Shown here piece after piece: positions 17,791-42,902 of a DNA stretch of 51,279 bases. This DNA is from Alcanivorax sp. (GTDB taxonomy: Bacteria > Pseudomonadota > Gammaproteobacteria > Pseudomonadales > Alcanivoracaceae). The stretch is from assembly GCA_022449455.1 (NCBI GenBank), contig JAKUPL010000019.1:38171-89449 (forward strand), given 5' to 3'. The position numbers were made by a program, and so were the translations under genes. The first letter of the stretch is position 1. Every line of letters begins with the position of its first letter. The notes beneath the pieces were generated by a model. That model saw only the letters and a program-made list of their open reading frames with translations. It was not told the DNA's origin and made no database searches.

Positions 17791-18903
17791 ATGAGCGCCG
17801 ATCTCGCGCCCCTGTTTCGTCCGTTTGAATGCAAATCCCTGACGCTGCGCAACCGCGTGGCCATGGCCCCCATGACCCGTAACTTCTCGCCCGGCCAGGT
17901 GCCCGGCGAGAACGTGGCCGGCTACTACCGCCGGCGCGCGGAAGGGCAGGTGGGCCTGCTGATCACCGAAGGCACCACCATCAATCACCCGGGCGCGCCG
18001 GGCCACGACGCGGTGCCCGCCTTCCACGGCGAAGCCGCCCTGGCCGGCTGGAAGCGGGTGGTGGAAGAGGTGCACGGCGCCGGCGGCGCCATCATTCCCC
18101 AGCTCTGGCACGTGGGCAGCACCCGCCGGCCCGGCGTGGGTCCGGACAAGGACGCCCCCGCCTATTCGCCGTCCGGCCTGTTCAAGCCCGGCAAGCCCAA
18201 TGGCAAGGCCATGGACCAGCAGGACATCGACGACGTGATCCGTGCATTCGCCGACGGCGCCCGCGACGCCAAGGCGCTGGGCTTCGACGGGGTGGAAATC
18301 CACGGGGCCCACGGCTACCTGCTGGACCAGTTCTTCTGGGAAGGCACCAACCAGCGCGACGACCGCTACGGCGGCTCCCTGGAGAAGCGCGCCCGCTTTG
18401 GCGTGGAAGTGGTCCAGGCGGTGCGGGACGCGGTGGGCGAGGACTTCGCCATCGTGCTGCGCTATTCCCAATGGAAGCAGCAGGACTACGAGGCGCGCCT
18501 GGCCCACAATCCGGAGGAACTGGAGCGTTTTCTGGCGCTGTTCGTGGACGCCGGCGTGGACATGTTCCATGCCTCCACCCGCCGTTTCTGGGTGCCGGAG
18601 TTCGAGGGCTCCGATCTGAACCTGGCGGGCTGGACCAGAAAGCTCACCGGCAAGCCGGCGATCTCCGTGGGCAGCGTGGGGTTGGACGACGATTTCATCG
18701 GCGCCAACAACCAGGGCATCGGCGGTACCGCCAACCCGAAAGGCATCGAGGAGCTGGTCAAGCGCATGGCCGCCGACGAGTTCGACCTGATCGCGGTGGG
18801 CCGGGCCCTGCTGCAGGACCCGAACTGGCTGGTGAAAATGCGGGAAGGTCAGGGCGGCGAGATCGAGCCCTTCACCAAGGCGGCGCTGGGTTCGTTGAGT
18901 TAA
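17791..18903 (+). CDS. NADH:flavin oxidoreductase, Old Yellow Enzyme family
   Basis: 370-residue FMN-dependent TIM-barrel ene-reductase. MAPMTRNFSPGQVPGE near 25-40, the substrate-anion pair His171/His174 in HGAHGYLLDQF, NQRDDRYGGSLEKRARFGVEV at about 187-206 and the C-terminal FDLIAVGRALLQDPNWL are all typical. The natural substrate cannot be read from sequence; enoates or enones are usual. A GGGAGAG site precedes the ATG. It is convergent with the MFS gene, and a heptad-repeat palindrome fills the gap between the two stop codons. Confidence 0.92.
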   Translation: MSADLAPLFRPFECKSLTLRNRVAMAPMTRNFSPGQVPGENVAGYYRRRAEGQVGLLITEGTTINHPGAPGHDAVPAFHGEAALAGWKRVVEEVHGAGGAIIPQLWHVGSTRRPGVGPDKDAPAYSPSGLFKPGKPNGKAMDQQDIDDVIRAFADGARDAKALGFDGVEIHGAHGYLLDQFFWEGTNQRDDRYGGSLEKRARFGVEVVQAVRDAVGEDFAIVLRYSQWKQQDYEARLAHNPEELERFLALFVDAGVDMFHASTRRFWVPEFEGSDLNLAGWTRKLTGKPAISVGSVGLDDDFIGANNQGIGGTANPKGIEELVKRMAADEFDLIAVGRALLQDPNWLVKMREGQGGEIEPFTKAALGSLS

Positions 18904-18908
18904 CCCCA

Positions 18909-19004
18909 GTTACAAGTTGAAAGTTAAAAGTTGAAACGCGGGCAGGGCCCCGATGACGGCAAGGCCCTGCCCGCGCTTTGAACTTTCAACGTGTCACTTT
19001 CAAC
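18909..19004. repeat. Heptad palindrome A1 (four 7-bp units, GC-rich spacer, four inverted units)
   Basis: The left arm 18909-18936 reads as four consecutive 7-mers: GTTACAA, GTTGAAA, GTTAAAA, GTTGAAA. The right arm 18977-19004 reads TTTGAAC, TTTCAAC, GTGTCAC, TTTCAAC. The 40-nt spacer holds a perfect 13-bp stem, CGCGGGCAGGGCC (18937-18949) with GGCCCTGCCCGCG (18963-18975), so the whole element can fold as one long hairpin. It begins 6 bases after the OYE stop and ends 9 bases before the convergent MFS stop, so it may act as a two-way terminator. Confidence 0.85.
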
Positions 19005-19012
19005 TCACTCTT

Positions 19013-20326
19013 TTAATCATTTTCCAGGCGCTTGTTGATGCGCAGGGCCAGCAGGGTGCAGACCACGCCGGACAGCAGATAGACGCTGACGTAGGCGAGC
19101 CCGAATTTCGCCGACAGGCCCAGTGCCACCAGCGGCGCGAAGGCGGCGCCGAACAGCCAGGCGAAGTCGGAGGTCAGCGCGGCGCCGGTGTAGCGGAAGC
19201 GGCGCTGGAAGTTGGCGGTCACGGTGCCGGACGCCTGCCCGTAGGACACGCCCAGCAGGGCGAAGCCGATCAGGATGAACAGGTCCTGCTGCAGCGGCGA
19301 ACCGTTCATCAGCATCGGCGTGAACAGGCTGAATACCCCGATCAGCACCGCCAGGGTGGCCACCGTGGTGCGCTTGCCGATGCGGTCGGCGATCCAGCCG
19401 GAAAGCACCGTGCCGCCCATGCCGATGATGGCGCCGATGATCTGGATCGCCAGCACATTGCCGATCGCCTGGGTGTCGCCCAGGTAGATCCAGGACAGCG
19501 GGAAGATCGTCACCATGTGGAACAGCGCATAGCTGGCCAGGGCGGCGAACGAGCCGATAAAGATGTTGTAGCCCTGTTTGCGCAGCATTTCCCGGGTGCC
19601 CAGGGGCTCCAGCTCGCGTTCTTCCAGGGCGGCGGTGTACTCATGGGTCACCACAAGTCGCAGCCGGGCGAACAGCGCCACCACGTTGATGGCGAAGGCC
19701 ACGAAGAACGAGTAACGCCAGCCCCAGCCCTGGAAGTCGGCGCTGGACAGGTTGGTGAACAGGAACAGGAACAGGGCACTGGCCACCAGGAAGCCGATCG
19801 GCGCGCCCAGCTGGCCGAGCATAGCGTACCAGCTGCGCCGTTCCCGCGGCGCGTTCAGCGCCAGCAGCGAGGGCAGCCCGTCCCAGGAGCCGCCCAATGC
19901 AACCCCTTGCACGATCCGGAACAGCGCCAGCAGCAGGATCGAGAAGCCGCCCAGGGTCTCGTAGCCGGGCAGGAAGGCGATGCCGGCGGTGGCGGTGCCG
20001 AGCATGAACAGCGAAGCGGTCAGCTTGACGCTGCGGTCCCAGCGCCGCTGGATCATCATGAACAGGGCGGTGCCGAACGGCCGGGCGATGAACGCGAAGG
20101 AGAAGATCGTGAAGGCGTACAGCAGGCCTTCCAGCGGGCTGGCGAACGGGAAGAACACCGACGGAAACACCAGCACCGAGGCGATGCCGTAGACGAAGAA
20201 GTCGAAGTATTCGGAGGTGCGCCCCACCACCACGCCCACGGCGATTTCGCCGGGCGCCACCTTGGTGCGGTCGGCCGGCGGCCGGTTGTAGGTGGTCGGG
20301 AGGTCGGAGTCGTAGGCTCTGGACAT
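19013..20326 (-). CDS. MFS transporter, metabolite:H+ symporter (MHS) type
   Basis: 437-residue, 12-segment major facilitator protein. The early TSEYFDFFVYGIASVLVFPSVFF, the RPFGTALFMMIQRRWDRSVK loop between segments 2 and 3, and ALFRIVQGVALGGSWDGLPSLLA resemble the MHS group (KgtP, ShiA, ProP relatives), which import organic acids or osmolytes with protons. The substrate is not deducible. I chose ATG 20326 (MSRAYDSDL); the in-frame extension upstream adds a basic tail and runs into the cyoA promoter region. It is divergent from cyoA and convergent with the OYE gene. Confidence 0.88.
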   Translation of the reverse strand: MSRAYDSDLPTTYNRPPADRTKVAPGEIAVGVVVGRTSEYFDFFVYGIASVLVFPSVFFPFASPLEGLLYAFTIFSFAFIARPFGTALFMMIQRRWDRSVKLTASLFMLGTATAGIAFLPGYETLGGFSILLLALFRIVQGVALGGSWDGLPSLLALNAPRERRSWYAMLGQLGAPIGFLVASALFLFLFTNLSSADFQGWGWRYSFFVAFAINVVALFARLRLVVTHEYTAALEERELEPLGTREMLRKQGYNIFIGSFAALASYALFHMVTIFPLSWIYLGDTQAIGNVLAIQIIGAIIGMGGTVLSGWIADRIGKRTTVATLAVLIGVFSLFTPMLMNGSPLQQDLFILIGFALLGVSYGQASGTVTANFQRRFRYTGAALTSDFAWLFGAAFAPLVALGLSAKFGLAYVSVYLLSGVVCTLLALRINKRLEND

Positions 20327-20432
20327 GCTCGGGTCTCGCTGCGTACTGGTCTGTTTGAATCCAATAAGAGTATGCTGAGCCCGGCGGCGAAGGAAATCCA
20401 CTCCTTTAACCGGTGCGCCGTACTATCGCGTG

Positions 20433-25390: not shown

Positions 25391-26672
25391 GCTCGACGCC
25401 ACCGGCCGCAAGAACATGCAGCAACTGATCCAGCTCCGCTGGATCGCGGTGCTCGGCCAGATCGGCACCATTCTGGTGGCCAACCTGGTGTTCCAGGTGG
25501 CGCTGCCGGTGCACTACATGCTGGCGGTGCTGGCCGGCCTGGTGGCGTTCAACGGTCTCAGCATGCTGCGCCTGAGGTGGGTGCGCCGCGAGGTCAGCAA
25601 CGGCGAGTTGTTTCTGGCGCTGCTGGTGGATGTGGTCACCTTCACCTTGCAGCTGTGCCTGAGCGGCGGCGCCACCAACCCCTTTATCTTTCTCTATCTG
25701 TTGCAGGTGGTGCTGGCGGCGGTGCTGCTGGAGGCCTGGTCCACCTGGCTGATCGTGCTGGTTACCGCCGTGGGCTTCGTGTGGCTGGAGTTCGCCGGCC
25801 GCCCGCTGACCCTGCCGCCGGACTACGAACGCGGCCCGTTCAGCCTTTACATCCAGGGCATGCTGATCTGCTTCGTGCTCAACGCGGTGCTGCTGGTGAT
25901 CTTTATCAGCCGCATCACCCGCAACCGGCGGGAACGGGACGAGCGGCTGGCCGCTTTGCGCCAGCGCGCCGCCGAGGAAGAGCACATCGTGCGCATGGGC
26001 CTGCTGGCCTCCGGCGCCGCCCACGAGCTGGGTACGCCGCTGTCCACCCTGGCGGTGATCCTCGGCGACTGGCGCCATATGCCGGTGTTGAAGGGCGACG
26101 CGGACCTGGATCAGGAGATCGCCGAAATGCAGGCCCAGGTGCAGCGCTGCAAGTCCATCGTCAGCGGCATTCTGCTGTCCGCCGGCGAGGCCCGGGGCGA
26201 ATCCTCGGCGGAAACCACGGTGCACGCCTTTCTCGACGACATCGTCAACGAATGGCGACGCACCCGCCCGGTGGAGGACTTCGCCTACTACAATGAGTTC
26301 GGCGAGGACGTGGACATCGCGTCCGACTCGGCCATCAAGCAGAGCCTGCACAACATGCTCGACAACGCCCTGGAAGCGTCGCGGCGCCGGGTGGTACTCA
26401 CGGTGCGCCGCCGCGAGGAAGAACTGGTGCTGACGGTGAGCGACGACGGCCCGGGCTTCAGCGACGCCATGTTGTCGCGGCTGGGACGACCCTATCAGTC
26501 CACCAAGGGCCGGGCGGGCAGCGGCCTGGGGCTGTTTCTGGTGGTCAATGTGGCGCGTACCCTGGGCGGCGGGCTGGAAGCCCGCAACCGCCCCCAGGGC
26601 GGCGCCGAGGTCACCTTGTCGCTGCCGCTGGACTCACTGATGCTGGAAGACGCGCAGCAAGGAGAACCCTGA
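25368..26672 (+). CDS. regB: Redox-sensing histidine kinase, RegB/PrrB/RoxS family
   Basis: 434-residue membrane kinase. Six hydrophobic segments occupy about 25-182. The sequence SGGATNPFIFLYLLQVVLAA at 99-118 contains the GGxxNPF heptapeptide by which RegB senses the ubiquinone pool. The phospho-acceptor is His219 in AAHELGTPLSTLAV, and Cys261 lies 42 residues after it, near where the redox-active Cys of RegB lies (His225/Cys265 in Rhodobacter); that equivalence is my inference. The ATP domain has DNALEAS, DDGPGF and GSGLGLF. It overlaps the SURF1 gene by 23 bases and has a GGGGAG site. It probably controls the oxidase operon in response to quinone redox state. Confidence 0.93.
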   Translation: MTAPVSTELDATGRKNMQQLIQLRWIAVLGQIGTILVANLVFQVALPVHYMLAVLAGLVAFNGLSMLRLRWVRREVSNGELFLALLVDVVTFTLQLCLSGGATNPFIFLYLLQVVLAAVLLEAWSTWLIVLVTAVGFVWLEFAGRPLTLPPDYERGPFSLYIQGMLICFVLNAVLLVIFISRITRNRRERDERLAALRQRAAEEEHIVRMGLLASGAAHELGTPLSTLAVILGDWRHMPVLKGDADLDQEIAEMQAQVQRCKSIVSGILLSAGEARGESSAETTVHAFLDDIVNEWRRTRPVEDFAYYNEFGEDVDIASDSAIKQSLHNMLDNALEASRRRVVLTVRRREEELVLTVSDDGPGFSDAMLSRLGRPYQSTKGRAGSGLGLFLVVNVARTLGGGLEARNRPQGGAEVTLSLPLDSLMLEDAQQGEP

Positions 26673-27229
26673 TGAACGCCGACACCGAAACGCCGGACGG
26701 CGCCCGGCGGCTGCTGATCGTCGAGGACGACGCCGCCCTGGCGCGCACTCTCGGTCGCTCCTTCGAGCGGCGCGGCTACCTGGTGCGCAGTGTGGAAGGC
26801 ATGGACGGGCTGGCGGAAACCCTGGCCGAGTACCGCCCCGGCTATGCGGTGGTGGACCTCAAGCTCAAGGGTGACGCCTCCGGCCTGACCTGCGTGCAGG
26901 CGCTCCACGACCACGACCCGGACATGCTGATCGTGGTGCTCACCGGCTACGCCAGCATCGCCACGGCGGTGGAGGCGATCAAGCTGGGTGCCTGCCATTA
27001 CCTGGCCAAGCCGTCCAACACCGACGACATCGAAGCCGCTTTCGAACGCGCCGACGGCAGCACCGACGTGGCGGTGGAAGGCCGCCCCACCTCGATCAAG
27101 ACCCTGGAATGGGAACGCATCCACCAAACCCTGGCGGAAACCGGCTTCAATATCTCCGAAACCGCCCGCCGGCTGGGGATGCACCGGCGGACACTGGCGC
27201 GCAAGCTGGGTAAGCGGCAGGTTAAATAA
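26672..27229 (+). CDS. regA: Response regulator, RegA/PrrA/RoxR family
   Basis: 185-residue partner of the kinase immediately before it (TGATG overlap, strong AAGGAG site). The receiver domain has the acidic Glu18-Asp19-Asp20, phospho-acceptor Asp62 (VVDLKLKG), Thr91 and Lys113. A Pro-less linker leads to a Fis-type helix-turn-helix at about 150-183 (FNISETARRLGMHRRTLARKL), nearly invariant in this family. RegA homologues switch genes for terminal oxidases and other energy metabolism. Its position right after the oxidase genes suggests direct control of them. Confidence 0.94.
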   Translation: MNADTETPDGARRLLIVEDDAALARTLGRSFERRGYLVRSVEGMDGLAETLAEYRPGYAVVDLKLKGDASGLTCVQALHDHDPDMLIVVLTGYASIATAVEAIKLGACHYLAKPSNTDDIEAAFERADGSTDVAVEGRPTSIKTLEWERIHQTLAETGFNISETARRLGMHRRTLARKLGKRQVK

Positions 27230-27247: not shown

Positions 27248-27386
27248 GTTGAAAGTTAAAAGTTAAAAGTTAAAACGCGGACGGGGTGGGTGGGGCGGGC
27301 AAGGCCCTGCCCGCACTTCAGGCCCAGGGGCGCCTGGAAGGCCAATCCGTGGCCCCCCTTTCAACTTTTCACTTTCAACTTTCAAC
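27248..27386. repeat. Heptad palindrome A2 (4 + 4 seven-bp units, 83-nt spacer)
   Basis: The left arm 27248-27275 is GTTGAAA followed by three GTTAAAA units. The right arm 27359-27386 is TTTCAAC, TTTTCAC, TTTCAAC, TTTCAAC. The spacer shares the 17-mer GGCAAGGCCCTGCCCGC (27298-27314) with palindrome A1 (18958-18974), so the copies are related beyond their arms. It starts 18 bases after the regA stop and ends 5 bases before the convergent stop of the FMN-binding gene. Confidence 0.85.
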
Positions 27387-27391
27387 TGCCC

Positions 27392-27940
27392 CTAAGGCAT
27401 CAACCGCGTCGGCGCGGCGCGCCCCTCCCCGGCGTAGTACCAATGCCGATGCGGCAGGTCCGCCAGTTCCAGCACCTTAACGTGTTCCGCGCGCAGCACC
27501 AGGATGGAAAAATCCTCGGCGATGTGGTCCCCCGGCTGCGGCAGGCCGGTCTGGTGCAGGCTGCCCGGCGGCGGGCCGTGGAAGCGGGCGCGGTCGGCGT
27601 CGTTCAGCTTCTCCCAGAGCCGTTGGCAGTCCTCCGGGTGGCTGTCCGGCAACAGAAATCGTACCGGCCCGCGAAAGCGCCACTGGGTGCGGCTGGTCAG
27701 GTCGTACCAGCAGGCTTCCGCGTGGGGGTGGCCGCGCGCAGGCGCCTGGCGCTGCAGCTCGATCACCTTCTCGCTGCGCTGGTCGGTGGTGAACCACAGC
27801 TCGGCGCCGTGTCGCTCGCGCAGCGCCAGGGTACGGCAACGGGCGCCGTCCGGCCCCACGGTGGCGAGCTGGGCGAAGCAGTGCGGCGCGCCGGCGCGGG
27901 TGGCATCGAACCAGGCGGTCCAGGGTTGAGGTACGCTCAT
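27392..27940 (-). CDS. FMN-binding pyridoxamine 5'-phosphate oxidase-like protein
   Basis: 182-residue split-barrel protein of the group distantly related to PdxH. FAQLATVGPDGARCRTLALRER, WFTTDQRSEKVIELQRQ, EACWYDLTSRTQWRFRG and the C-terminal HRHWYYAGEGRAAPTRLMP fit the pattern of flavin- or heme-binding members. It lacks assurance of true PdxH activity, and I would not call it PdxH. The ATG at 27940 has AGGAGG about ten bases upstream, which rules out the longer frame. It is divergent from the trp promoter and convergent with regA. Confidence 0.8.
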   Translation of the reverse strand: MSVPQPWTAWFDATRAGAPHCFAQLATVGPDGARCRTLALRERHGAELWFTTDQRSEKVIELQRQAPARGHPHAEACWYDLTSRTQWRFRGPVRFLLPDSHPEDCQRLWEKLNDADRARFHGPPPGSLHQTGLPQPGDHIAEDFSILVLRAEHVKVLELADLPHRHWYYAGEGRAAPTRLMP

Positions 27941-27966
27941 GGGGTGTCTCCCTCCTTGGCTGATCG

Positions 27967-27996
27967 TTGGCTTTTGCGTTGCTCGCGGGCTAGAAT
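27967..27996 (+). promoter_or_regulatory. Probable sigma-70 promoter of trpL-trpE
   Basis: TTGGCT (27967-27972) and TAGAAT (27991-27996) are separated by 18 bases, matching four of six and five of six consensus positions. Transcription would start near 28003, giving a leader of about 36 nt before the leader-peptide ATG. It lies in the gap between two divergent genes and upstream of an attenuator, where a trp promoter is expected. Confidence 0.6.
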
Positions 27997-28038
27997 CCGG
28001 CCATTCATTCGCTTGAACGTCCCCGAGGATTCGTGGTG

Positions 28039-28107
28039 ATGCTGTCGCGCCCGCACAATCCGCTGCTGTTTTCCGCCTCCCGCGGCCCCGCCCGCTGGCG
28101 ATGGTGA
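28039..28107 (+). CDS. trpL: trp leader peptide with two Trp codons before its stop
   Basis: A 22-codon frame, MLSRPHNPLLFSASRGPARW followed by R-W-stop, ends TGG CGA TGG TGA: Trp at positions 20 and 22 are the only Trp codons and sit at the very end. GAGG lies about 11 bases upstream. It is followed within 60 bases by alternative hairpins and a T-rich tract, then trpE. This is the layout of ribosome-mediated attenuation, known for trpE in Pseudomonas and trp in E. coli. The small size means it is easy to miss, but the context makes it convincing. Confidence 0.75.
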   Translation: MLSRPHNPLLFSASRGPARWRW

Positions 28108-28119
28108 AGCTCGCCCCCG

Positions 28120-28164
28120 CGCGCCGTTGAGGCGCGTCCGCCGGTAACGGCGCCCCTTTGTTTT
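28120..28164 (+). terminator. trp attenuator: antiterminator and terminator hairpins
   Basis: CGCGCC (28120-28125) pairs with GGCGCG (28131-28136), the proposed antiterminator. GGCGC (28131-28135) can instead pair with GCGCC (28150-28154), or CGCCG with CGGCG (28139-28143/28148-28152), each followed by the T-rich tract TTTGTTTT at 28157-28164, the proposed terminator. GGCG across the first Trp codon (28097-28100) can pair with CGCC at 28122-28125, giving the classical 1:2, 2:3 and 3:4 set. Pairings were found by eye; no energies were computed. Confidence 0.65.
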
Positions 28165-28203
28165 CGCTACAATCCGACACCTGAATAAGAACCGGGGACC
28201 ATC

Positions 28204-39912: not shown

Positions 39913-41199
39913 TCACGATTGTTCCCGCGCTACCGCCCGGTAGCCGATGTCGGTGCGATGGTAGGCGTCGCGCCAGGTGATTTTCGCCACCGCCTCATAG
40001 GCGCGGCGCTGGGCATCGGCGACGCTGTCGCCCAGGGCGGTGACGCACAGCACCCGGCCACCGTTGGTGACCACCTGGCCGCCCTGCTCGGCGGTGCCGG
40101 CATGGAACACCTTGACGGTGTCCGAGTCGGCGTCGTCCAGGCCGCTGATGGCGTCGCCCTTGTCGTAGCCGTCCGGGTAGCCGCCGGCGGCCATCACCAC
40201 GCCCAGGGTGGGGCGCGGGTCCCAGTCGGCCTCGATCCGGTCAAGCTGGCCGTCCAGGGCGGCCAGGCACAGCGCCGCCAGATCGGAGCGCAGGCGCATC
40301 ATGATCGGCTGGGTTTCCGGGTCGCCGAAGCGACAGTTGTATTCGATCACCTTGGGCTGGCCGTCGGCGCCGATCATCAGGCCGGCGTACAGGAAGCCGG
40401 TGTAGGGCATGCCCTCGGCGGCCATGCCCGCCACGGTGGGGCGGATCACCTGGTCCATGATGCGCTGGTGAATCTCGTCGGTGACCACCGGCGCCGGTGA
40501 ATAGGCGCCCATGCCGCCGGTGTTGGGGCCGCTGTCGCCGTCGCCCACGCGCTTGTGGTCCTGGCTGGTGGCCATCGGCAGGATGTGCTCGCCGTCGACC
40601 ATGACGATGAAGCTGGCTTCCTCGCCGTCCAGGAATTCCTCCACCACCACCCGGTGGCCGGCGTCGCCGAACTTGTTGCCGTCCAGCATATCGCGCACCG
40701 CGTCCTCGGCTTCTTCCAGGGTCATGGCCACGATCACGCCCTTGCCGGCGGCCAGGCCGTCGGCCTTGATCACGATCGGCGCGCCCTGTTCGCGCACATA
40801 GGCGAGGGCCTCATCCATGTCCGTGAAGTTGCCGTAGGCGGCGGTGGGAATGGCGTGGCGGGCCAGAAAGTCCTTGGTGAAGGCTTTGGAGCCTTCCAGT
40901 TGGGCGGCGGCCTTGGAGGGGCCGAAGCACTTCAGGCCACGGGCCTGGAAGTAGTCCACCAGACCTTCCACCAGCGGCGCCTCGGGGCCGACGATGGTCA
41001 GCGCCACGCCTTCGCGCTCGGCCAGTTCGGCCAGGGCCGCCTGATCGCTCACGTCCACCGTCACGTTCTCCAGCTTGGCGTCCCGGGCGGTGCCGGCGTT
41101 GCCCGGTGCCACCAGCACCTTCTCCACCGCGTCCGCCTGGGCCACTTTCCAGGCCAGTGCATGCTCGCGGCCACCGCCGCCGATGATCAAGACTTTCAT
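39913..41199 (-). CDS. purD: Phosphoribosylamine-glycine ligase
   Basis: 428-residue GAR synthetase, an ATP-grasp enzyme of purine synthesis. It opens [19 protein letters not shown], with [45 protein letters not shown], and [30 protein letters not shown] at the metal site. The order fis-purH-purD is that of Pseudomonas. A heptad palindrome lies between purH and this gene. Confidence 0.97.
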
Positions 41200-41255: not shown

Positions 41256-41328
41256 GTTGAAAGTTAAAAGTTAAAAGTTGAAAGGGCGCCCCGGTGAGGG
41301 TTTTAACTTTCTCCTTTCAACTTTCAAC
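41256..41328. repeat. Heptad palindrome A3 (4 + 4 seven-bp units, 17-nt spacer)
   Basis: The left arm 41256-41283 is GTTGAAA, GTTAAAA, GTTAAAA, GTTGAAA. The right arm 41301-41328 is TTTTAAC, TTTCTCC, TTTCAAC, TTTCAAC. The spacer GGGCGCCCCGGTGAGGG is short and different from those of A1 and A2. It lies 5 bases after the purH stop on the minus strand and 56 bases before the purD start, so here it sits between two genes of the same direction. Confidence 0.85.
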
Positions 41329-41333
41329 TGCTT

Positions 41334-42902
41334 TTAATGCCGGAAATGGCGCATGCCGGTGAACACCATCGCCATGTCCGCCTCGTCGGCGGCGGCGATC
41401 ACTTCCTCGTCGCGGATCGAGCCGCCGGGCTGGATCACGCAGCGGATGCCGGTCTCGGCGGCGTTGTCGATGCCGTCGCGGAACGGGAAGAAGGCGTCGG
41501 AGGCCATCACCGAGCCCTTCACCTCCAGGCCCGCGTGCTCGGCCTTGATGGCGGCGATGCGCGCGGAATTGACGCGGCTCATCTGGCCGGCGCCGACACC
41601 GATGGTTTGCCGGTTGCGGGCGTAGACGATGGCGTTGGACTTGACGAACTTGGCCACCTTCCAGGCGAAGATCAGGTCGTGCATCTCGGCTTCCGTCGGC
41701 GCCCGCTTGGTGACCACCTTCAGGTCGCCCTCGGTGATCATGCCCACGTCCCGGTCCTGCACCAGCAGGCCGCCGTTGACGCGTTTGTAGTCCAGGCCCC
41801 GGGCGGTGGGGCCGTCGATCTCGCCGCACTCCATCACCCGCACGTTCTTCTTGGCGGCGGTCACGGCCAGGGCTTCTTCGCTGACCCGCGGGGCGATGAT
41901 CACCTCCACGAACTGGCGGTCGACGATGGCCTTGGCGGTGGCCGCGTCCAGTTCCCGGTTGAAGGCGATGATGCCGCCGAAGGCGGATTCCGGGTCGGTG
42001 GCGAAGGCCAGGTCGTAGGCGTGTTCGACGCCGTCCAGGCTGACCGCCACGCCGCAGGGGTTGGCGTGCTTGACGATCACACAGGCCGGCTTGGTGAAGG
42101 ATTTGACGCACTCCAGGGCGGCGTCGGTGTCGGCGATGTTGTTGTAGCTGAGCGCCTTGCCCTGCAGTTGGCGGGCGGTGGCGACGCTGGCGGCGGCCGG
42201 CTCGCGCTCCACGTAGAAGGCCGCTTTCTGGTGCGGGTTCTCGCCGTAGCGCATGTCCTGCGCCTTGCGGAAATTCAGGTTGATGGTGCGCGGGAAGTCC
42301 TGGTTGTTCTCGCCCACCAGCTTGCCGAAGTGGTTGGCGATGGCGCTGTCGTAGGCGGCGGTGTGCTCGAACGCCTTGATCGCCAGGTCGAAACGCAGGC
42401 CGTCGGACAGGGCGCCCTGGTGGGCCTGCATATCGTCCAGCACCCGGGCGTAGTCGGCGGCGTCGGTGACGATGCCCACGTGGGCGTGGTTCTTGGCCGC
42501 CGAGCGCACCATGGTCGGGCCGCCGATGTCGATGTTCTCCACCGCCTCTTCCAGGCTGCAGTCGGGCCGCGCCACGGTGGCTTCGAAGGGATACAGGTTA
42601 ACCACCACCAGGTCGATGCGCTGGATGCCGTTGTCCGCCATCACGCCGTCGTCCTGGCCGCGCCGACCGAGAATGCCGCCGTGCACCTTGGGATGCAGGG
42701 TCTTGACGCGGCCGTCCATCATTTCCGGAAAACCGGTGTAGTCGGACACTTCGCGCACCGCGATGCCGGCGTCCCGGATGGCGCGGAAGGTGCCGCCGGT
42801 GGACAGCAGCTCGACGCCACCGTCCGCAAGGGCACGGGCGAAGTCGACGATGCCGGTTTTGTCGGAAACGCTGATCAGCGCGCGTTCAACGGCCTTGCTC
42901 AT
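41334..42902 (-). CDS. purH: AICAR transformylase / IMP cyclohydrolase
   Basis: 522-residue bifunctional enzyme of the last two steps to IMP. The N-terminal cyclohydrolase domain (about 1-200) starts [19 protein letters not shown] with LLSTGGT and [17 protein letters not shown]. The transformylase domain contains the catalytic KHANPCG and, near the end, [18 protein letters not shown] and [13 protein letters not shown]. It is followed by palindrome A3 and preceded by palindrome B and fis. Confidence 0.97.

Follow-up and report, generated by a model that had tools for sequence, protein, structure and literature searches.

The intergenic interval at positions 18,909–19,004 of the window, the 51,279-nt stretch of an Alcanivorax sp. 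contig analyzed here, holds a palindrome built from 7-nt units, and we asked what kind of element this is and how it came to lie there. The original prediction described it (A1) as one of three palindromes in which four GTTRAAA-like heptads make up a 28-nt arm on either side of a spacer (40, 83, and 17 nt, respectively), and this architecture was confirmed at all three sites. The left arm of A1 (18,909–18,936, plus strand) comprises the heptads GTTACAA, GTTGAAA, GTTAAAA, and GTTGAAA, and the right arm (18,977–19,004, minus strand) four inverted heptads, one of them degenerate (plus-strand reading GTGTCAC). The 40-nt spacer (18,937–18,976) carries a GC hairpin module, CGCGGGCAGGGCC...GGCCCTGCCCGCG, which bears out the inner GC stem proposed for this copy. 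A1 begins 5 nt after the end of a gene of the NADH:flavin oxidoreductase family (17,791–18,903, plus strand) and is followed, 8 nt past its own end, by the end of a convergent MFS transporter gene (19,013–20,401, minus strand). A2 likewise lies between convergent genes, with a left arm of four heptads (27,248–27,275, plus strand), a composite 83-nt spacer of GC modules (27,276–27,358), and a right arm of four inverted heptads (27,359–27,386, minus strand). The gene for a response regulator with a Fis-type HTH (26,672–27,229, plus strand) ends 18 nt ahead of it, and 5 nt separate the end of the right arm from the stop codon of a pyridoxamine-phosphate-oxidase-like gene (27,392–28,180, minus strand). 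A3 has a left arm of four heptads (41,256–41,283, plus strand), a 17-nt spacer (41,284–41,300), and a right arm of four inverted heptads, one degenerate (TTTCTCC; 41,301–41,328, minus strand). It separates two minus-strand genes, phosphoribosylglycinamide synthetase (purD-like; 39,913–41,199) and AICARFT/IMPCHase (purH-like; 41,334–42,902), and lies 5 nt beyond the purH-like stop codon.

A search with GTTRAAAGTTRAAA, allowing at most two mismatches, returned 16 matches in the window compared with 0.07 expected, all 16 within the arms of A1–A3. Folded as RNA, A1 reached −51.3 kcal/mol (z = −8.6; none of 200 shuffles folded as well), A2 surpassed 200 of 200 shuffles (z = −4.3), and A3 gave z = −5.4 on the minus strand, again better than every shuffle; its plus strand scored z = −3.1 and was equaled by 2 of 200 shuffles. 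No Rfam family matched anywhere in the window, no T-run of the kind that follows the stem of an intrinsic terminator was present at A1 (scan of 18,850–19,050 only), and the A2 region was not found among annotated plasmid records.

Genome-wide copies and their build

In the 4.22-Mb genome that contains the window (G000), the exact pattern (GTTRAAA)3 gave 100 matches (61 + 39) compared with 0 + 1 for the reversed pattern, a weak control because GTTGAAA read backward is simply a rotated GTTGAAA; two-unit matches numbered 129 + 99. Further copies exist, and the family is genome-wide. Among the 57 genomes searched, the three-unit pattern was present in 11, with 146 matches in G001, 51 in G002, 116 in G003, 7 in G011, and 1 in G012, as well as 1–12 matches in five genomes of one other genus; seven genus members (G004–G010) had none. 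Reversed-pattern matches reached 13 across genomes, as expected from arrays made wholly of GTTGAAA units.

We read 45 stretches in addition to the window and scored 48 paired copies by a scripted criterion. These 48 form an incomplete census, drawn from all exact three-unit sites and, for two-unit sites, from the first 100 of 228; contig C12 (a copy of C4), L046 (window A1 itself), and 10 unpaired arms were left out, and the copy at C23:286703, which contains a gene, was read apart as L033. The claim of exactly four units per arm survives as the mode of each arm (left 34/48, right 35/48) and fails as a rule, since only 26 of the 48 copies have 4 + 4 units and the number of units varies among orthologs of a copy in related genomes. 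A fifth unit occurred in 4% of left and 8% of right arms. Spacers ranged from 10 to 152 nt, and many are modular, with CGCGGG-N20-GGCCGTGCCCGCG, often a GCTNCAA remnant, CCGGCCGAAGGCCGCGG, and a terminus such as CACGACC. The base preceding the left arm was A in 42/48 copies, and that following the right arm was T in 45/48.

The arms did not covary: in-register identity was 22.6/28 for the two arms of one copy compared with 22.96 for arms of different copies, and the hairpin as such is thus not visibly under selection. The orientation of copies by their spacers, considered as a cause of the missing covariation, did not account for it. In the innermost unit, where the fourth base varies, this base was the same in both arms in 8 of 40 scorable copies and different in 32, a mismatch that exceeds independence and is perhaps a relic of an asymmetric ancestor.

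Several further observations concern the surroundings of the copies. Heptads of the GCTNCAA type lie within or around GTTRAAA copies (L071:9187-9643, L037, L077, L039, L061), forming nested repeat families. An IS-like end (GGACTGGCCCC...AAGTAGACAC) adjoins 4 of the 10 unpaired arms (L038, L052, L065, L069; near contig ends), as if the IS targets palindromes. Contig C12 (3594–5550) matches part of C4 (82039–83995) near-exactly and diverges thereafter, and represents either a duplicate or an assembly fragment.

Placement at gene ends and comparison with relatives

Using gene positions from heuristic gene calls and 960 random places as the control, we found a gene end 0–20 nt away for 34 of the 48 copies compared with 41/960 random places, and for 39/48 compared with 59/960 when overlaps of up to 12 nt were allowed. 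Within 200 nt, a gene end was found for 46/48 copies. Two gene ends flanked 19/48 copies and two gene starts 2/48, and the distance from stop codon to arm had a median of 6 nt (65 distances). These distances also bunch at 4–6 nt (20/65). A genuine family, its constant build, and the location of most copies at gene ends bear out the earlier view that the construction reflects spread or selection and not chance. Two contrary outcomes were looked for, namely a lack of further copies and copies inside genes without a fixed unit number, and neither was encountered.

Copies are present or absent depending on the species. At L041, covering four sites in six relatives, the corresponding position variously held the same copy, one built of other heptads, a hairpin pair of the GTAGGAGCGGCTTCAGCCGCG type, sequence unrelated to any of these, or only a few bases. 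We also searched for empty sites with a 905-nt query of three joined-flank sites (of 23 prepared) against three relatives. G002 was without the element at two of the three sites queried and carried another hairpin or REP pair instead; because these hairpins occupy the two sites, no duplication was readable there. Target-site duplications were likewise not evident by eye in the 30-nt flanks of the copies. Taken together with the missing arm covariation, this means that movement by a classical transposase is not shown. At L098, L099, L097, and L200, intergenic spots that carry heptad copies in G000 are taken in relatives by REP-type pairs, GTAGGAGCGGCTTCAGCCGCG or the like.

PF05635 genes between heptad arrays

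One copy of the family, outside the window at G000:C23:286696-287153, has two GTTRAAA arms around 402 nt that contain a PF05635/TIGR02436 gene (112.1 bits compared with a curated cut-off of 33.8 for PF05635; 109.4 compared with 24 for TIGR02436). It is the one PF05635 gene found in G000 (S23/IVP, four-helix bundle). Against solved structures, its product matched XCC0516 (2gsc; E = 2.9e-16), an S23p described as a homopentamer ring (PMC4990558). The spacers of the window copies, at 17–83 nt, are too short for an S23p/IVP ORF.

PF05635 genes were found in 12 of 13 genomes of the genus, 18 genes at three loci as judged from flanking sequence. By eye, heptad arrays stood on both sides of all 18; scripted scoring of the same genes recovered 31/36 flanks (upstream 18/18, downstream 13/18). 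The arm heptads vary among GTTRAAA, GCTNCAA, ATNCAGG, GTTGAYA, GTTAAYA, and GACGC- or CACGC-type units. IVPs of locus 1 nevertheless form one clade (support 98/89) across arms with three different heptads, sharing 62.5–64.7% identity with the G000 protein between heptad groups, compared with 86–92% at the protein level for neighboring stretches. A single clade with conserved neighbors suggests that the gene stayed resident while both arms changed. A close IVP relative, at 93–95% identity, is that of Alloalcanivorax gelatiniphagus. Across the genus, the IVP genes sit at shared loci, unlike those of a lively transposon, and a search of 50,697 phage records found no relatives of the G000 IVP at E = 1e-5.

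The original prediction had recognized no named class. Beyond its reach was the finding that heptad arms of like build bracket PF05635 (S23/IVP) genes both here and in many phyla. A protein scan of genome contigs yielded 118 loci, of which the best 80, from many phyla, were kept (the named loci), and for each flank we determined the best lag among 4–12 within 260 nt of the protein match, with windows from the same loci and shuffles as controls. After flanks that were too short or N-rich had been dropped, 153/160 flanks were usable for this test and 74/80 loci for inversion. Period 7 was best in 130/153 flanks compared with 81/1059 control windows and 13/153 shuffles; it was found on at least one side in 70/73 loci and on both sides in 53/73. 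The two flanks matched at 20/28 or better in inverted orientation in 58/74 loci and in direct orientation in 15, the between-loci comparison also giving 15, so the arrays are mostly inverted.

PF05635 matches occurred in 52 of 299 genomes of the phylum, 48 of them above the cut-off. In a second sample, made up of the 30 best matches (one per genome) from these 299, with some close relatives and possible overlap with the named loci, period 7 was best in 52/59 flanks (of 60) compared with 11/144 controls. A third set, which partly overlaps the first 80, gave 41/58 flanks compared with 7/142 (29 of 30 loci from nine genomes already reached, all 58 flanks used; L261 was left out as below the cut-off). 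For plasmid IVPs, 8 of 24 records were analyzed, and the best period was 7 on at least one side in 8/8: both sides in L269, L271, L272, and L276, upstream only in L273–L275, and downstream only in L270. The L276 gene lies inside a 23S rRNA gene and has heptad arms. Rfam scans found no rRNA gene at L079/L033 or at the 18 of 30 second-sample loci scanned.

Two plasmid contexts stand out as observations in their own right. In L271, from a Pseudanabaena plasmid, the IVP gene lies between cas6 and cas4 and is flanked by long perfect arrays in direct, not inverted, orientation, the upstream unit being AAAAGCT and the downstream unit, read on the same strand, AAAAGCC; IVP genes within cas loci are already on record (PMC3936711). 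In the cyanobacterial plasmids L273–L275, IVP genes are set in tightly packed same-strand genes, with about four heptads directly upstream and a short remnant downstream.

The heptads share a motif. We collected arms with a lag score of at least 12 from 18 genus loci, 79/80 named loci, and 35/59 second- and third-set loci. The 191 such arms gave 106 different consensus heptads, and their alignment yields N(A/C)AG(G/T)NN with 3.31 bits, compared with a mean of 2.56 and a maximum of 2.70 bits in 20 position-permuted nulls, a motif count biased toward loci with clear arrays because the 35 were chosen after the period result had been seen. The motif lay on the gene strand in 55/60 upstream arms and as its reverse complement in 32/46 downstream arms. 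Arm length peaked at four units (60 of the 191 arms), followed by five (37).

We then compared dispersed heptads with the IVP arms of the same genome. AGTTGKC was found in 2/14 genomes, both Thiocystis (223 and 243 matches) with AGTTGKC IVP arms, and in none of the other 12. GTGATCR was found in 4/14, comprising two Verrucomicrobiaceae (21 and 30 matches) with GTGATCR arms, Luteolibacter with 16 matches and such arms at 0/5 of its IVP loci, and one stray match. AAGGWWC was found in 6/14, five of these with AAGGWWC IVP arms, and its reversed pattern matched in four genomes, up to 20 times. In Vibrio breoganii and one Syntrophaceae genome AAGGWWC was confined to one IVP locus, and dispersal is therefore not general.

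Outcomes nearer the window were mixed as well. G001, with 146 (GTTRAAA)3 matches, has two IVP genes, neither with GTTRAAA arms. G005, G010, G011, and G012 were sampled as 20-kb stretches chosen by position. In 100 kb, G005, without any GTTRAAA match, had two short-spacer palindromes of GTTGACA, which is also the arm heptad at one of the two IVP genes there. The sampled palindromes of G011 are built of CAAGTTG, unlike the arms at either of the two IVP genes in that genome (ATNCAGG, GTTAAYA), G012 has GACGC-type palindromes and no PF05635 match, and G010 showed no heptad palindrome in the 60 kb sampled. Gene-less families are thus genome-specific, and they often, not always, match the IVP arms of the same genome. 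The imperfect matching may reflect heptad families that succeeded one another in the course of time, and the GCTNCAA remnants in and around GTTRAAA copies fit such replacement.

Origin of the palindromes and comparison with known systems

The finding is real and larger than first supposed, and we class it with the S23p/IVS element, here situated outside rRNA genes and probably giving rise to palindromes that lack the gene. We favor, with modest confidence, the reading that A1–A3 and their relatives are gene-less copies of the S23/IVP element, and that an IVP and the heptad family of its genome form a cognate pair in which the IVP promotes spread or maintenance. In the gene-bearing form, two heptad arrays of about four units each, inverted relative to one another, would enclose a PF05635/TIGR02436 gene. 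The IVP pentamer ring would read tandem (A/C)AG(G/T)-centered heptads at about one subunit per heptad, its target probably being the transcript or a single strand of one arm, and this binding could lead to spread and/or maintenance of palindromes with the same heptads. The palindromes would be tolerated just past stop codons, where harm is least. That a ring reads a repeat is suggested by the period-7 arrays, their four to five AG-centered units, and the preference for the gene strand; TRAP, an 11-subunit ring protein, likewise binds (G/U)AG repeats. Binding by the IVP, its stoichiometry, IVP-dependent spread, and any host benefit are what we infer from these patterns. Against the binding idea, the modest net charge of IVPs gives no help (median +1.5 over 78 proteins; +5 for the G000 IVP). 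Against cognate pairing stand the mismatches in G001, G011, G012, G010, and Luteolibacter, as well as the direct flank matches that reached the inverted threshold in 15/74 loci. The favored reading as a whole is also weakened by the confinement of AAGGWWC to one IVP locus in Vibrio breoganii and the Syntrophaceae genome, by the lack of a clean target-site duplication at the two sites where an element-free relative was compared, and by the shared loci of the IVP genes in the genus.

A bolder form of this idea, which we hold to be rather unlikely, is that the pentamer engages one (A/C)AG(G/T)NNN heptad per subunit, so that four to five heptads would load one ring, and that ring and arrays make up a widespread two-part selfish system. 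The two would coevolve through concerted repeat change and would seed both rRNA hairpins and, at the 3' ends of genes, palindromes without a gene. They might spread via RNA by using the reverse transcriptase of another element in trans, a route hinted at by kinship with the DGR protein Avd; a resemblance to Avd is stated in PMC10053308. Such a system would explain the long-noted excess of bacterial heptameric repeats.

Three other explanations have to be weighed. The palindromes might be host 3'-end hairpins, acting as mRNA stabilizers or attenuators between genes and kept by selection, with the IVP merely sitting in one of them. Their strong predicted RNA folds, the gene ends 0–20 nt from 34/48 copies, and the REP-type or other hairpins that relatives hold at the same place are what one would expect; the absence of a T-run terminator at A1, the sole site scanned, and arm pairing without covariation are not, and neither the genome-specific heptads nor the arrays found beside IVP genes across many phyla (vs 8% of control windows) would be accounted for. 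We regard this account as unlikely. A passenger model, in which another agent (e.g., a transposase or RAYT in trans) moves the palindromes or slippage grows them and the IVP is the cargo of some, appears to us similarly improbable. It accommodates the vast excess of gene-less over gene-bearing copies, the slipping of unit number between species, the G012 palindromes without an IVP match, and the sampled G011 palindromes unlike both IVPs of that genome. The spacers of the other 48 copies, however, are too short (10–152 nt) for an ordinary gene, so that no other cargo was seen, both arms differ among species around an IVP gene that stayed, and the strand of the upstream motif follows that of the IVP gene.

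Independent tandem slippage in intergenic DNA, giving simple, G-quadruplex, or translation-control repeats whose inverted pairing is secondary, seems very improbable. Bacteria do show an excess of heptamers, and readings of this kind have been offered for Xanthomonas and Beggiatoaceae (PMC4692102, PMC4679880), but slippage sits poorly with inverted arms that share a genome-specific heptad, with a single AG motif common to 106 heptads, with the tie to one protein family, and, for a G-quadruplex, with the lack of G-tracts in GTTRAAA.

Should an IVP and its heptads indeed belong together, the consequences would reach beyond this genome. Genes for S23/IVP ("four helix bundle protein") occur widely but have no known function in the parts of the literature available to us, and inverted heptad arrays are a candidate ligand. 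The tie may unite the Coxiella IVS, Xanthomonas GGGAATC, and Beggiatoaceae TAACTGA with the GTTRAAA family, and it offers a reason for the over-representation of heptamers in bacteria. The genus also provides a case in which upstream and downstream repeats changed in concert around a gene that kept its place. Among the publications listed by a literature search largely of freely accessible journals, none linked S23/IVP to dispersed heptads.

Among known systems, a close parallel in organization is REP/REPIN with RAYT, where a resident transposase gene is flanked by a palindrome family dispersed in the same genome. The best reading of our data is by analogy with it: a resident gene and same-family palindromes scattered in the genome, which would work as RAYT/REPIN does but with an unrelated protein. 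The heptad-array arms and a four-helix bundle protein in place of an HUH transposase set the two apart, and no GTAG-type REP tag was evident at the ends of the 48 copies. The putative binding would resemble that of TRAP in pairing a ring protein with evenly spaced AG-containing repeats, and would differ in the unrelated protein, five instead of 11 subunits, and the period of 7.

Another close system is the 23S rRNA IVS of Coxiella burnetii, termed a selfish element, in which an S23p ORF accompanies a 28-bp stem of terminal inverted repeats with two or three GACAGAT units plus one degenerate unit, by strain (PMC4990558). Both systems have a PF05635-type ORF between inverted repeats of variable-number heptamers and a stem of about 28 bp, but the Coxiella IVS lies within an rRNA gene, whereas the G000 copies number in the tens, lie at gene ends, and are mostly gene-less. 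Measured against an rRNA IVS, the window copies have the heptameric terminal inverted repeats and the ~28-bp stem, and lack an internal ORF and a location in rRNA. The GGGAATC repeats of Xanthomonas share with the GTTRAAA family the four-unit mode, inverted pairing, and intergenic placement. They number 186 and 183 per genome with four as the commonest unit number, form 70 and 75 inverted pairs, are 89% and 93% intergenic, and lie nearer the upstream ORF; the authors, who note that heptameric repeats are over-represented in bacteria, interpret them as G-quadruplex repeats, and the available text does not mention S23/IVP (PMC4692102). XCC0516, the solved S23p, is encoded by Xanthomonas campestris (PMC4990558). 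Arrays of TAACTGA in Beggiatoaceae are abundant in particular genomes, mostly direct and just upstream of start codons with one inverted case, and the available main text makes no mention of S23, intervening, or four-helix (PMC4679880); the heptad (TCAGTTA on the other strand) fits the AG consensus and also adjoins the IVP of locus L137. That 7-base arrays bracket the genes of this one ring-forming family in bacteria of many phyla suggests a single system of protein and repeats behind the separate accounts of bacterial heptamers.
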